Shown piece by piece: positions 3,752-16,223 of a stretch of 21,876 nt of DNA (the stretch's first letter is position 1; the number at the start of each line of letters is the position of its first letter). This DNA comes from a virus. The notes under the pieces were generated by a model that was not told the origin of the DNA, searched no databases, and saw only the letters and a list, made by a program, of their open reading frames with translations. A program made the position numbers and the translations under genes. The stretch lies in IMG/VR virus record IMGVR_UViG_3300005664_000113, positions 1 through 21,876 of that record; one strand, given 5' to 3'.

Positions 3752-3972
3752 AGCTATCTAAACATAACGCCTTTACCCCAAACCTCTGCGCTATAACTGG
3801 CAACGTTCGTACTAGCAGCATTGTCATTGCACAGCTAACCCCACAGCAGTACAGAAAAGAGCCAAAGACAGCATCAGACATTACTGCATTTATGTCACCT
3901 AGCGCACAGATAGTTATCGGTACTAAAGCTGATTCTGATAAACGCGTTTCATTTAGCAAGGCGCGGATATAG
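3748..3972 (+). CDS. Hypothetical basic protein
   Basis: A 74-residue protein starting in an ATGA overlap with the previous gene. It begins MKLSKHNAFTPNLCAITGNV and is rich in Ser, Thr and Lys with a short hydrophobic patch (SSIVIAQL, AQIVIGT). There is no membrane segment, Cys pair or recognisable domain. It is the last gene of the short early unit before a hairpin at 3993-4029. The function is unknown. Confidence 0.5.
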   Translation: MKLSKHNAFTPNLCAITGNVRTSSIVIAQLTPQQYRKEPKTASDITAFMSPSAQIVIGTKADSDKRVSFSKARI

Positions 3973-6515: not shown

Positions 6516-6681
6516 AGGCTGGTTAAACAGCCTGCAAGCGGTCTACGAATGTGATTGTCTCAAACTTACGACTAGAGCAAATGAACCTAATTTCCTGATA
6601 AAGATAAACGCGCTCGGTCTTAAACTTGAACGAAAAGTAGCAAGTGGAACTCGGTACGTTAGCTATAGGCTGGTGAAATAA
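6475..6681 (+). CDS. Small winged-helix-like protein
   Basis: A 68-residue basic protein. TTGGAGA lies just upstream of the ATG and decides the start, although this makes a 41-base overlap with the previous gene. The order is helix (NKLIKRLRKGWLNSLQAVYE), short turn, second helix (LKLTTRANE), then two beta strands with a wing-like loop (LERKVASGTRYVSYRLV). This is the pattern of small phage winged-helix proteins of the MKKQxxxIxxxLxxGxWLTxxxA type. It could be a regulator or a DNA-bound accessory protein. It is the last gene before a new promoter and RNA element. Confidence 0.6.
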   Translation: MQTQQNKLIKRLRKGWLNSLQAVYECDCLKLTTRANEPNFLIKINALGLKLERKVASGTRYVSYRLVK

Positions 6682-6684
6682 ATC

Positions 6685-6712
6685 TTGCTATGAATGAAAA
6701 TAGCGGTATAAT
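6685..6712 (+). promoter_or_regulatory. Sigma70-like promoter for RNA element and replication genes
   Basis: TTGCTA (6685-6690), 16-base spacer, TATAAT (6707-6712). The -10 is perfect and the -35 has four of six consensus bases. Transcription would begin near 6719, just before the first arm of the structured RNA. Confidence 0.62.
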
Positions 6713-6718
6713 GATTAT

Positions 6719-6823
6719 GTCTTTGCTGGCACTAAGACGAACAGAAGCCCTTAAAGCCTCTACTTTCGAGCCGTTAAATCGGTACTGTGCCAGCAGGAAA
6801 GTAGAAGCTTTAGGGGCTTTTTT
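6719..6823 (+). ncRNA. Structured leader or small RNA with interlocked inverted repeats
   Basis: A non-coding stretch of about 105 bases between a good promoter and a run of six T. It holds two inverted repeats in the order A-B-A'-B'. A is TGCTGGCAC (6724-6732) and A' is GTGCCAGCA (6787-6795), a perfect 9-base pairing. B (6745-6767) and B' (6797-6819) are 23 bases each and pair with one mismatch and one G-U. A' lies in the loop of the B-B' hairpin, so the two stems either form a pseudoknot or compete. B-B' followed by T6 is also an intrinsic terminator, 14 bases before the replication gene. This could be a free small RNA or an attenuator that controls replication genes. No known RNA family is recognised. 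Confidence 0.6.
6745..6823 (+). terminator. Long-stem intrinsic terminator of RNA element
   Basis: Stem of 23 pairs (6745-6767 with 6797-6819, one mismatch), 29-base loop, then TTTTTT (6818-6823). The unusually long stem and the 9-base segment in its loop that can pair outside it set it apart from an ordinary terminator. Confidence 0.55.
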
Positions 6824-6837
6824 GTTGGCTAAATAAT

Positions 6838-7602
6838 ATGCATTATTACTCACATCACATTGGAGATATGATACGCGATACAGCGCATTTGGACGATCAC
6901 CAACTGGCAACGTATATGCGAATGATTTGGGCGTATTACCAAACAGAAAAGCCATTTGAAAACAATATGGAAGACCTTGCGTTCGCTATGCGTTCGGATG
7001 AAAAAACCATTCGATTGCTATTACGCCATTACTTCAAATTAGATGGTGAAGTATGGCGGCATGGTCGGTGCGACAAGGTGATTGCAGAGTATCACAGTAA
7101 GTCAGAGAAGGCCGCACAAAGCGCAAAAACACGCTGGACTAAAGCAACTGCAAAGCAAACGGATAGCGAAAGCAATGCGAACGCATTAGTAGATGGTGCG
7201 AACGCACAGAAAAACGATGCTAACCATAAACCAATAACCAATAACCATAAACCAGTAAATAAAGAATACAAGGCGCAAGCGCCATCAGCTTACGCTGATT
7301 TGTTATCCGAAGTTGCTCCGCAGGTTGTTGACGATTGGAAACAGCTCCGAAAAACCAAAAAAGCAGCCGTAACGCGAACGGTCGTAGAGCAAATCATTGT
7401 CGAAGCGGGTAAGGCTGGTTACTCGCTCGAACGGGCTTTATCCGAAAGCTGCGCTAGGGGTTGGACTGGCTTCAAAGCCGAATGGGTTAGCGGAAAACAA
7501 AACGGATTTACCCCTCAAAACCTGAACAAGCAAGAGGCGCTAGAGGCGCGGAATCGCAAAGTTGCAGAACAGTGGGCTAGAGACATGGCAGGAGCAATTT
7601 AA
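6838..7602 (+). CDS. YdaU/DUF1376-type replication initiator-like protein
   Basis: A 254-residue protein. The N-terminal DUF1376 domain (about 1-95) starts with the typical YYSHHIGDMIRDTAHLDDHQLATYMRMIWAYYQTEKP, a winged-helix-like fold found in phage replication proteins. A polar, low-complexity linker (about 96-150) follows, encoded by a heptamer repeat array. The C-terminal part contains DDWKQLRKTKKAAVTRTVVEQI and a GYSLERALSESCARGWTGFKAEW segment common in phage O-like proteins. It probably binds the phage origin and recruits the replisome through the next gene. No good ribosome site precedes the ATG. The upstream 14 bases follow directly after the RNA element's T run, so translation or transcription may depend on that structure. 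Confidence 0.82.
   Translation: MHYYSHHIGDMIRDTAHLDDHQLATYMRMIWAYYQTEKPFENNMEDLAFAMRSDEKTIRLLLRHYFKLDGEVWRHGRCDKVIAEYHSKSEKAAQSAKTRWTKATAKQTDSESNANALVDGANAQKNDANHKPITNNHKPVNKEYKAQAPSAYADLLSEVAPQVVDDWKQLRKTKKAAVTRTVVEQIIVEAGKAGYSLERALSESCARGWTGFKAEWVSGKQNGFTPQNLNKQEALEARNRKVAEQWARDMAGAI
7221..7262 (+). repeat. Heptamer direct repeats, possible replication origin
   Basis: Inside the linker of the YdaU-type gene, five consecutive heptamers of the form (T/A)AACCAN run from 7221 to 7255, followed by TAAATAA. TAACCATAAACCA occurs twice, exactly 21 bases apart (7221 and 7242). Lambda-type phages carry their origin iterons inside the initiator gene at the interdomain linker, so this array is a candidate origin. 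It could also be only a codon-level repeat in a flexible linker. Confidence 0.45.
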
Positions 7603-12316: not shown

Positions 12317-12715
12317 ATGAAACTAACAGTTAAGCAAGAGGCTTTCTGTCTAGCCTACATAGAGACAGGAAATGCAAGCGAAGCATACAGGCGATCCTAT
12401 GACGTGCAGGATATGAAGCCTGAGAGCATTAACCGTAAAGCAAAAGAGTTAATAGACAACGGCAAGATTACGGCAAGGGTTGCAGAATTACAACAGTCCT
12501 TAGTAAAACGCCATGAAGTAACAGTAGATAGCCTAATGCTAGAGCTTGAAGAGGCTCGTATGGCTGCAATGGGAGCATCAAACCCACAAAGCGCGGCTGC
12601 TGTAGCTGCAACGATGGGTAAGGCTAAATTGGCTGGCCTGCTGGTTGACAGAGTAGGCAACCCTGATGGCACTCCAATGGATATGAGCGTAAAGGTATCG
12701 TTCGTTAAGCCATGA
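12317..12715 (+). CDS. terS: Terminase small subunit
   Basis: A 132-residue protein of the Terminase_2 type. I start at the ATG at 12317; a GTG eight codons upstream falls in the terminator hairpin. The sequence starts MKLTVKQEAFCLAYIETGNASEAYRRSYD, the usual N-terminal HTH domain that recognises the packaging site. A helical oligomerisation region follows (NGKITARVAELQQSLVKRHEVTVDSLMLELEEARMAAM). The C-terminal part would contact TerL. The stop overlaps the TerL start (ATGA). It selects phage DNA and starts packaging. The ribosome site is weak (GAAAG). Confidence 0.9.
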   Translation: MKLTVKQEAFCLAYIETGNASEAYRRSYDVQDMKPESINRKAKELIDNGKITARVAELQQSLVKRHEVTVDSLMLELEEARMAAMGASNPQSAAAVAATMGKAKLAGLLVDRVGNPDGTPMDMSVKVSFVKP

Positions 12716-13980
12716 ACGTTGAATTCCCTGAAAAGCTAAAGTTCTTGTTTCAACCTAAGCGGTACAAGATAGCTAAAGGTGGGCGCGGTAGTGGCAAGAG
12801 TTGGAGTTTCGCTAGGGCTTTGTTGATACAAGGCGCTGAAAAGAAGCTACGCATCTTGTGTACTCGTGAAGTTCAGAAGTCAATTAAAGACTCCGTGCAT
12901 AAACTATTAGCCGACCAGATACAAAGTTTGGGTTTCGGTGGGTTTTATGAGGTATTAGAGAATGAAATTAGAGGAAAGAACGGCACAGTTTTTACCTTCG
13001 CAGGCTTGGCTACCCATACGATTGAATCAATCAAGTCTTATGAAGGCGTGGATCGGGTTTGGGTGGAAGAGGGTCAAGTAGTAAGAAAACGTAGTTGGGA
13101 CGTATTGATTCCAACGATTAGAAAGCCTGATAGCGAGATATGGGTTAGCTACAACCCCGCGCTAGAGACAGACGAAACTCACCAAAGATTCGCAGCAAAT
13201 GGCGGCGATGATTGCATTGTTGTTGACATGAACTACAACGACAACCCTTGGTTTCCTGAAGTGCTAGAAGACGAACGTCAAAAAGCAAAAATCAGGATGC
13301 CAAAAGCTGAGTATGAGAACATTTGGGAGGGCAAATGTATGCCTGCTGTAGCTGGTGCTATTTACTTCAATGAAGTGGCCAAGGCAGAAGATGATGGCAG
13401 GATTACGAATGTCCCACATGACCCGATGCAAAAGGTTCATGTAGTCTTTGATTTGGGTTGGAATGACGCAATGGCGATTAGCTTGGTACAAAAGAGCCTA
13501 TCAGCAATTGCAGTTATCGAGTACATAGAAGACAACTACAAAACACTGGATTACTACTCTGCACTGCTTAAAGAAAAGCGGTACAACTGGGGCAAGGTTT
13601 GGCTACCACACGACGGCAGGCACAAAGACTTTAAGACTGGCAAGAGCGCAGAAGACATTATGAAGGCTCTGAATTGGGACGTAGCAATTACCCCGAATAT
13701 AAGTGTAGAAGATGGGATTAGACAAACCCGCATGGAGTTTGGTAAGTTCTATTTTGACAAGAAAAAGACCGACAGGCTGGTGCAGTGTGCAAAGCGTTAC
13801 AGACGGTCAATTAACCAACAAACCAACGAGGCAGGAGCGCCATTCCACGATGAATGGTCGCATGGTGCTGACAACCTGAGATACATAGCGATTAACGCTG
13901 AAAAAATGAGTAACGATGATTATGGGTCTATGCGCCCACTGGCTGAATTACAACCAAACGAAGACGGAATATATTTCTAA
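12712..13980 (+). CDS. terL: Terminase large subunit, Terminase_3 type
   Basis: A 422-residue packaging motor. The N-terminal ATPase has Walker A GGRGSGKS (23-30), Walker B ending VWVEEG with Glu119/Glu120, and the coupling motif WVSYNP (144-149). The C-terminal RNase H-like nuclease has VVFDLGWND (Asp247), WLPHDG (Asp301) and HDEWSHGADNLRY (Asp387), the expected acidic triad. The sequence resembles the PBSX-type TerL family and not the lambda type. It cuts concatemeric DNA and pumps it into the prohead through the portal encoded next. All motifs look intact. Headful packaging is likely given the P22-like context, but the end type is not visible here. Confidence 0.95.
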   Translation: MNVEFPEKLKFLFQPKRYKIAKGGRGSGKSWSFARALLIQGAEKKLRILCTREVQKSIKDSVHKLLADQIQSLGFGGFYEVLENEIRGKNGTVFTFAGLATHTIESIKSYEGVDRVWVEEGQVVRKRSWDVLIPTIRKPDSEIWVSYNPALETDETHQRFAANGGDDCIVVDMNYNDNPWFPEVLEDERQKAKIRMPKAEYENIWEGKCMPAVAGAIYFNEVAKAEDDGRITNVPHDPMQKVHVVFDLGWNDAMAISLVQKSLSAIAVIEYIEDNYKTLDYYSALLKEKRYNWGKVWLPHDGRHKDFKTGKSAEDIMKALNWDVAITPNISVEDGIRQTRMEFGKFYFDKKKTDRLVQCAKRYRRSINQQTNEAGAPFHDEWSHGADNLRYIAINAEKMSNDDYGSMRPLAELQPNEDGIYF

Positions 13981-16223
13981 TGACTGAAACAACCCAAGAG
14001 CAAACAGGATTAGCATCACTGCTAGAAGACCGTTTAACTACTTGGGAAAAAGCACGCCTGCCACAAACTGAAAAGCTACTGGATTGCTATCAAGATGTGA
14101 TGCGTATTCCCCGCGAAGATGACACAGCAGGCTCTGGCGCGGCAAGGGCTAAGAAAGCTAAAGGGCTATTCATTGGCTCAACCCGTAACAAGGTACGAGC
14201 TGCAAGGGCTAAGATTGTGGATGCCTTGCTTGGTGCAGGCAAGATGCCGTTTGACACGACACCGACTAACGAAGAATTAGCGCCTTTTGCTGATGTGGTA
14301 GAGGATATTCTTAAAGAGCAATTAGAGCGCGGACAATACAAAACTCTGCTTAGATCAGGCGTAAACACGCTGGCAACCTATGGAACTGGCTACACAGTCG
14401 GGCCATTGGTGCGCAAAGAAAAGATAGTCGAAGCAAGAGTAGAAAAAGCTGGTTTAAGCACGCAATTGGTTGAATCTGTCTATGAATATGACCTGCCTTA
14501 TTTTGAATTGTGCAACACCTTGGACTTCGTGCCAGATGCAGAGGCGCGGTCTATTGAAAAAGGTTTGGGCGGGTTTTGGGTAACGATGGAAAGTCGCCAC
14601 ACTGTCAAGGCGTGGGCTTCAGATAAGAGCTATAAGAACATCGAAACAGCCTTAATCGGGTGCAACGACAATGCCAATGAAAACGGCTCTGAACGTGCAT
14701 CACAAATGCGAGCCAATGTTGATTATTGGTACAAGAATGACCGTATCAAAGTAGCTAGATTCTTTGGTAAAGTGCCAAAACGCTTGCTAGATGGTGCAAA
14801 ACCAACAGAAGGCGAACAAGAAGACGGCGAAATGGTAGATGCTGTGGTAATCATGGCTGGTGGCGTAGTTGTTAAAGAAAGTGCCAGCCCTTACAAGAAA
14901 ACACCCGTTCAACGCTGCGTATATGAAGCAGTAGAGGATGAAATGGACGGTGTAGGCGTAGCTGAAAACAACGCACCACACCAAAAAGTAACCAATGCTG
15001 CTTTCCGCTTATTCATGGAAGGCAAGGGGCTTGCATTGTTGGGGACTAAGAGCGTAGACCGTTCTAAGTTTTTGCCAACAGAAGATTTTAAGAAGTTCCC
15101 CGGCAAAACCTACCAATTCAAACCGGGTTTATCACCAGACGAACGCAAAGACGCGATCATTAACCACACTGAACCAGATATTACAGGTGGTTGGATTGAT
15201 GTAATCCGAATGTCTGAGAACTTCAGCGATGATGACACAGGCATTACCAAGTACACCCAAGGCGATGATTCTAGCAACCTGAACAAGACAGCTAGCGGAA
15301 TCAGTATGATTATGTCGGCATCATCATTGCCAATCAAAGAGGTTATCCAAAACATTGATTCGATGTGGATTGAGGAGCATATAGAGCTGCTTTTAGATTG
15401 GGATTTGAAGTATTTAGAGCCTGAAACCGTAGAGAAGATTCACGGTAAAGAACATGCTGAAAAGTGGGCGCAAATCAAGGAATTTGGCAAGACTTCATTC
15501 ATGGATTGGCAGGCTACAGGCACGTCAAGTTTCATGCAAAAAGAGATTTTGACCAATAAAATTAGAGCCTTTGCTGATTTTGCGTTAAGCAACCCAATGA
15601 CAGCGCAAAAGATTGACGTTACTGAGATATTGCAGCAAACATGGGACGTAATGGAAATCGGGCGCGAATCGCCCATCTTGAAAGACGATAAAGGCGGTAT
15701 TCCACCTGAAATGCAACAAATGCAAGAGCAAATGAAGCAACAAATGCAGGCGATGGGTACAGCTTTGGAAAATGCGTCTAAACAAGTGGACGAACTAGAA
15801 GCAAAACTAGCTGACAAAGCAAAAGATACCGAGATTAAAGCGTTTGAAGCAGAGACAAAACGCCTACAAGCCACACAAACAACAGACCCTAACGCAATTG
15901 ACCCAACTGCAATAAGGGTAGCTGAAATCAACGCACGATCTGCTGAAAAGATTGCACTGATTAACAAAGTAAGCCAAGGCACAGCAGAAACACCAGAGTT
16001 TGCAGAAAACGAAGAAACAGGCGAAATCGAGGAAAAACCAAGCCAAACGCAAGTAATGCTAGGCGCATTGGTTGAAAGCAATCAACAAGTAATGCAAGCA
16101 ATCGGGGCTATGGCAGAAGCTGTAAGCGCGGTAGCAATCTCAACAAGCAAGCCAAATAACGCACAAATCGTGATTCAGAAACAAGCTGACGGTACGTTTG
16201 TTGGACAAAGGATTGAACAATGA
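13980..16223 (+). CDS. Portal protein, P22-like
   Basis: A 747-residue protein starting in a TAATG overlap with TerL. Its place and length match the portal of P22-like podoviruses. The N-terminal and central parts are mixed alpha/beta (including RSGVNTLATYGTGYTVGPLVRKE and YEYDLPYFELCNTLDFVPDAEA) and correspond to the wing and stem regions. The C-terminal part after about residue 575 is a long Gln/Glu/Lys-rich helix (MQQMQEQMKQQMQAMG and on, to about residue 690), as in the P22 portal barrel. It forms the dodecameric ring at one capsid vertex through which DNA enters and leaves. I call the family from context and composition more than from a single motif. Confidence 0.85.
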   Translation: MTETTQEQTGLASLLEDRLTTWEKARLPQTEKLLDCYQDVMRIPREDDTAGSGAARAKKAKGLFIGSTRNKVRAARAKIVDALLGAGKMPFDTTPTNEELAPFADVVEDILKEQLERGQYKTLLRSGVNTLATYGTGYTVGPLVRKEKIVEARVEKAGLSTQLVESVYEYDLPYFELCNTLDFVPDAEARSIEKGLGGFWVTMESRHTVKAWASDKSYKNIETALIGCNDNANENGSERASQMRANVDYWYKNDRIKVARFFGKVPKRLLDGAKPTEGEQEDGEMVDAVVIMAGGVVVKESASPYKKTPVQRCVYEAVEDEMDGVGVAENNAPHQKVTNAAFRLFMEGKGLALLGTKSVDRSKFLPTEDFKKFPGKTYQFKPGLSPDERKDAIINHTEPDITGGWIDVIRMSENFSDDDTGITKYTQGDDSSNLNKTASGISMIMSASSLPIKEVIQNIDSMWIEEHIELLLDWDLKYLEPETVEKIHGKEHAEKWAQIKEFGKTSFMDWQATGTSSFMQKEILTNKIRAFADFALSNPMTAQKIDVTEILQQTWDVMEIGRESPILKDDKGGIPPEMQQMQEQMKQQMQAMGTALENASKQVDELEAKLADKAKDTEIKAFEAETKRLQATQTTDPNAIDPTAIRVAEINARSAEKIALINKVSQGTAETPEFAENEETGEIEEKPSQTQVMLGALVESNQQVMQAIGAMAEAVSAVAISTSKPNNAQIVIQKQADGTFVGQRIEQ

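Follow-up and report, generated by a model that had tools for sequence, protein, structure and literature searches.

What kind of element is formed by the interlocked inverted repeats that stand between a promoter and a replication-type gene in this viral DNA? The window analysed here is the whole stretch of 21,876 nucleotides, a virus fragment recorded in IMG/VR, and its source is a tailed phage, given the genes for a Sak single-strand annealing protein (1448-2101), a Terminase_3 protein (12712-13980) and an SU10-type portal (13980-16223) that it also encodes. Our preferred reading, to which we assign a probability of about 60%, is that the repeats belong to a pseudoknotted RNA gene running from promoter to terminator, whose terminator would gate the replication operon downstream, as in the IsrK locus discussed below. 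The element sits where early transcription enters the replication genes, so that RNA-based control of phage replication can be addressed with a simple termination assay.

The original prediction described repeats in the order A-B-A'-B', and all four arms are present in the window where it had placed them (Table 1). The A:A' pairing is a perfect 9 bp, while B:B' spans 23 positions, among them a single C.A mismatch at 6758:6806 and a single U.G pair at 6751:6813, with U6 directly behind it. The location of A' inside the terminator loop, the promoter-like sequence and the replication-type gene 14 bases past the T-run are likewise confirmed, this gene encoding a DUF1376 protein that is likely a replication/primosomal protein. 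Two features had been overlooked: a 5-bp hairpin (P1) carries A in its 10-nt loop, and a small hairpin with a 6-nt loop (P3; 6770-6773 paired with 6780-6783) lies between B and A'. The nine A:A' pairs connect the P1 loop to a junction within the terminator. Homologues also have a hairpin stem around A, and P3 is found in the long subtype described below. The folding energy calculated for the segment as RNA is -48.1 kcal/mol (z = -6.2). A descriptor combining P1, A:A', the terminator and the T-run scored 97.6 at the element, compared with a maximum of 80.5 and a median of 61 for the best score per shuffle when the whole window was shuffled 400 times with its dinucleotides preserved and both strands were scored. 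A Pfam search with the upstream 68-aa ORF gave no match.

Table 1. Coordinates of the element and of its neighbouring genes in the window
Feature	Position	Strand	Basis or remark
Sigma70-like promoter, TTGCTA-16 nt-TATAAT	6685..6712	+	-10 box ends 6 nt 5' of P1
P1 hairpin, GUCUU/AAGAC (6719-6723 with 6734-6738) plus U6718.G6739	6718..6739	+	sequence, fold
A, PK1 5' strand, within P1 loop; TGCTGGCAC	6724..6732	+	pairing kept in the window's clade
B, 5' strand of terminator stem (P2)	6745..6767	+	sequence; homologues
P3 small hairpin in terminator loop, GCCG-UUAAAU-CGGU	6770..6783	+	fold
A', PK1 3' strand, one base 5' of B'; GTGCCAGCA	6787..6795	+	pairing kept in the window's clade
B', 3' strand of terminator stem	6797..6819	+	sequence
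Intrinsic-terminator U-run, predicted RNA 3' end	6818..6823	+	sequence; T-run after B' in homologues
Downstream gene, DUF1376 protein, 254 aa	6838..7602	+	ATG 14 nt past T-run
Upstream co-directional ORF, 68 aa	6475..6681	+	stop codon 3 nt 5' of -35 box

The starting sample for homologues consisted of contigs encoding the SNF2-helicase/methylase of the window, which were scanned for the element. L060 was found first, by a DNA profile search, and none of its four arms has the sequence found in the window, yet they pair. A structure scan then yielded L023, L071, L004, L081, L073, L015, L066, L049 and L053; this loose scan produced many false positives in coding regions, and only matches with a promoter, P1, a U-run and homologues were kept. 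A pattern derived from these members led to further contigs. About 35 related phage loci, found in IMG/VR contigs and in one GenBank phage (MW202462.1), retain the pairing through matched mutations, and the homologues are organised alike: a sigma70 -10 box precedes P1, the terminator stem encloses P3 and A', and a T-run follows, as a rule with a start codon behind it. The family is defined here by the alignments A1 (20 distinct sequences of the long subtype) and A3 together with R1, a covariance model of the nested helices only, pseudoknots left out. R1 matches MW202462.1 (74.5 bits), L081 and, twice, L073, and it detects L191, a locus picked by its terminase. It also detects the element in 7 of 80 loci picked by DUF1376 (among them L291, L312, L297, L282 and L246), six of the seven carrying it directly 5' of DUF1376. 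Members found in this way keep PK1, the A:A' pseudoknot, and PK2, which in the long subtype joins the linker 5' of the terminator stem to the P3 loop, with further sequence types such as UGGAAGG/CCUUCCA in L246. The alignments and the model enable others to search for members.

The element of the window itself belongs to a divergent short subtype, with L060 and L023. It has PK1, a terminator stem enclosing P3 with its U-run, the -10 register and a nearby start codon; it has neither PK2 nor P4, its P3 loop (UUAAAU) having no partner in the linker. R1 gave no match to the window at E<=5, and a second model, R2, run with filters off, gave 27.6 bits (E 9e-5), and reverse-strand copies made from true members score about as high. 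Since the window is missed by R1 and weak with R2, what links it to the family is its layout, together with L060 and L023, rather than a model. A DNA similarity search using the window's element returned nothing useful in phages, a single exact pattern had no match in viral contigs, and a second pattern designed for the window's subtype brought no new members. The two matches of a pattern scan of genome contigs were both unrelated coding sequence and were discarded.

The promoter keeps its register with P1 across the family. Of the 32 upstream regions listed, 28 have a -10 box ending 5-8 nt 5' of P1, and a -10-like hexamer (at least 5/6) occurs in the 20 nt before P1 in 68% of members versus 10% of shuffled sequences. 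With the -10 box in this register, the predicted RNA would span P1 to the T-run, as the original prediction proposed. The element would be a non-coding RNA gene of ~105 nt, bounded by a sigma70 promoter and an intrinsic terminator, both belonging to it, with both transcription and termination predicted. On the upstream side, the distance from the preceding stop codon to P1 is variable (5 to 192 nt). On the downstream side, the start codon lies 10-16 nt past the T-run in nearly all long-subtype members despite differing genes: DUF1376, SNF2 helicase-methylase and HNH genes (two with Pfam support), and others whose proteins have no Pfam match and are replication-protein-like. The L060 group and the L004 forms have no gene directly behind the element. 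Besides, in L099/L116 and L111/L119 the upstream flank and the element are identical or closely similar and the downstream genes differ, suggesting recombination or gene-cassette exchange at the element.

How could such an RNA gene act on the replication operon at whose head it is placed? In the gate that we propose, the P1 loop (A) would pair with A' at the junction atop the terminator hairpin, giving the pseudoknot. Since the start codon stands 14 nt past the terminator, which leaves no room for a second promoter, the gene would be transcribed only by read-through, starting either at the promoter of the element or in the upstream early operon. The element would then be an attenuator before the replication module, set by its pseudoknotted fold or by an RNA-binding factor, and the terminated short RNA would be stable and might exert feedback in trans, like IsrK. 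The helices with their covariation, the promoter register, the U-run and the start-codon spacing are the components of this model that sequence comparison supports directly. The control step is its weakest part, and we infer both the control of read-through and the action in trans. No alternative antiterminator pairing is conserved among the members; a P1-B' antiterminator (CCCUUGG/CCAAGGG), present in some of them, was dropped for this reason. The 10-16 nt spacing could merely be the shortest leader that retains a ribosome site.

The same RNA might instead be a free-standing phage sRNA acting in trans on an RNA or protein target of the host or the phage, with an incidental position and with early transcripts passing the terminator by phage antitermination. 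We consider this possible, though rather unlikely. It would fit a predicted RNA that spans exactly promoter to terminator, the compact fold with its double pseudoknot, the usual single copy per phage record and downstream genes that vary in kind, and it suits the L060 group and L004 better than a leader does, as these two forms have no gene directly downstream. What speaks against it is that the start-codon spacing is retained before unrelated genes, and that antisense targets of A', sought by complementarity within these loci, did not turn up consistently. In L071, the helicase gene that follows the element repeats A (GCCAAACCAAAU, 2066-2076) at its start codon (AUGCCAAACCAAAU, 2178-2192), and A' could therefore pair with that start site.

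Compensatory changes in related phages were the check that accompanied the original prediction. Both stems display them. In the clade of the window (window, L060, L023, L087), PK1 is 100% paired, with 9/9 pairs kept and 4/9 double-changed. All eight PK1 types compared are fully paired; their own partners form 7-11 Watson-Crick pairs, whereas foreign partners mostly form 3-5 and reach 5-8 only among the closely related window, L060 and L023. The sequence of B:B' is almost entirely replaced across homologues, with its pairing retained. Over P1, P2, P3, P4 and both pseudoknots, 95.7% of the cells in A1 are paired and 22 of 42 pairs are double-changed; the covariation score is 0.407 versus 0.139 in shuffles, with 0/500 shuffles matching the observed value, and sliding the partner by 1-3 columns lowers pairing to 36-52%. 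PK1 is shifted by one gap in A1, the correct reading being a change from CG/GC to UA/CG at two positions. PK2, spotted by eye and then counted in A1, is 100% paired with 5/5 pairs double-changed. Comparison across the family establishes the structure and its covariation. To our knowledge, few phage RNAs have pseudoknots supported by covariation.

These data also bear on whether A and A' pair between molecules, as in the kissing loops of plasmid copy control, so that the RNA would dimerise or answer the RNA of a co-infecting relative. The lack of complementarity between different PK1 sequence types is in line with such a role. However, PK1 of the long subtype comes in few, nearly constant sequence types, unlike incompatibility loops, and the presence of A and A' in one short molecule favours intramolecular pairing, which makes this account improbable. 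Operators and origins commonly appear as inverted repeats beside replication genes, but a protein operator or an origin structure acting as DNA is very improbable in view of the G.U-compatible changes, the two covarying pseudoknots and the fixed polarity of the element, with a U-run at one end and the promoter at the other. An ordinary terminator with a chance 9-bp repeat nearby is hardly credible: although most of the folding energy is attributable to the terminator alone, 0/400 shuffles reach the descriptor score and the compensatory A:A' changes lead us to regard this reading as refuted.

According to the original prediction, no RNA of this form is known to have been described in this position. 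The element has no Rfam family and was previously uncatalogued: neither the window nor any tested member matches a family there, and in a literature search that reached few of the subscription journals no account of this RNA came up. For positions 6650-6860 of the window, neither int-alpA (RF02996) nor IsrK is among the matches up to E=10, and the gathering-level search of the window gave no IsrK match. The high-E matches were set aside, as they were eukaryotic microRNA models, which fit any long hairpin, or wrong-strand PK-repBA. The PK-repBA and plasmid Rep leader pseudoknots (RF01089) also join a loop to a distant strand before a replication gene, but the sole window match is on the wrong strand (16.4 bits versus a gathering score of 45) and their fold is not terminator-centred. 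The OOP RNA of lambda, located next to the replication gene O, is also short and has a promoter and a terminator of its own; it is antisense to cII. It opposes the direction of its operon, whereas the RNA described here is co-directional with its own.

As to gene order, the claim of novelty has to be qualified by the IsrK locus of the Gifsy-1 prophage, which has the same order within a phage operon: own promoter, short RNA, intrinsic terminator and, directly behind, a read-through ORF (PMC4825925). IsrK acts by pairing with a downstream mRNA and activates translation of its own read-through mRNA (PMC4825925). The two elements differ in that IsrK has no Rfam match here, the neighbour genes are different and no counterpart to its mRNA pairing was found. 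HK022 put (PMC9378689) is a nascent phage RNA structure of the early operon that alters termination, suppressing it further downstream. Compared by description only, both are early-operon RNA structures, but the present one ends in a terminator and its long form has two covarying pseudoknots.

As to position, the claim likewise needs qualifying: int-alpA-like RNAs occupy the same place before DUF1376 in other phages. The int-alpA RNA (RF02996) is a phage-associated structured RNA with another sequence and fold, and its model matches neither the window nor the R1 family. An int-alpA-like signature (UUUGAAACxCGGCUAGG..hairpin..GAAAAG..CUCCC..GUUUCUUUU..GGGAG) lies directly before DUF1376 in 21/80 loci, versus 6/80 for the present family. 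Such loci include L242, L244, L250, L258, L266, L269, L272, L284, L293, L311 and L318; the element in L258 scores 27.7 bits (E 3e-4), under the gathering score of 35.8. A full int-alpA match (52 bits) lies immediately behind the helicase gene of L023. In the int-alpA-like RNA, an internal strand pairs with a strand past the U-run near the start codon, with matched changes seen by eye. A third type precedes DUF1376 in L253 (~2360-2500), where a terminator-like hairpin carries CUGGUAC in its apical loop, the complement of the hairpin loop GUACCAG.

We tentatively suggest, at less than even odds, that the family may represent a new class of regulatory RNA in phages: a terminator started by a promoter, with an apical junction that the loop of its own 5' hairpin would clamp, helped in most members by a second pseudoknot, and with a role in gating access to the replication module. 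Together with the int-alpA-like RNA and the kissing type of L253, the family would then belong to a set of unrelated structured RNAs that are interchangeable in this slot. If so, there would be a general RNA checkpoint ahead of phage replication genes. The shared slot is a first functional lead for the orphan int-alpA family.

Three minor observations concern individual members. L073 carries two different RNA copies (1481-1591 and 3817-3920) that flank its helicase gene, one before and one after. In L084 and L093, a DUF1376-like coding stretch (CRAWQQD) shares 22 identical nt with the L023 P1 hairpin (TGTCGAGCGTGGCAGCAAGACA). Finally, the record MW202462.1 (L137) places a hypothetical protein across the RNA (817-1059), on the strand opposite to it, and this annotation is probably not a gene.
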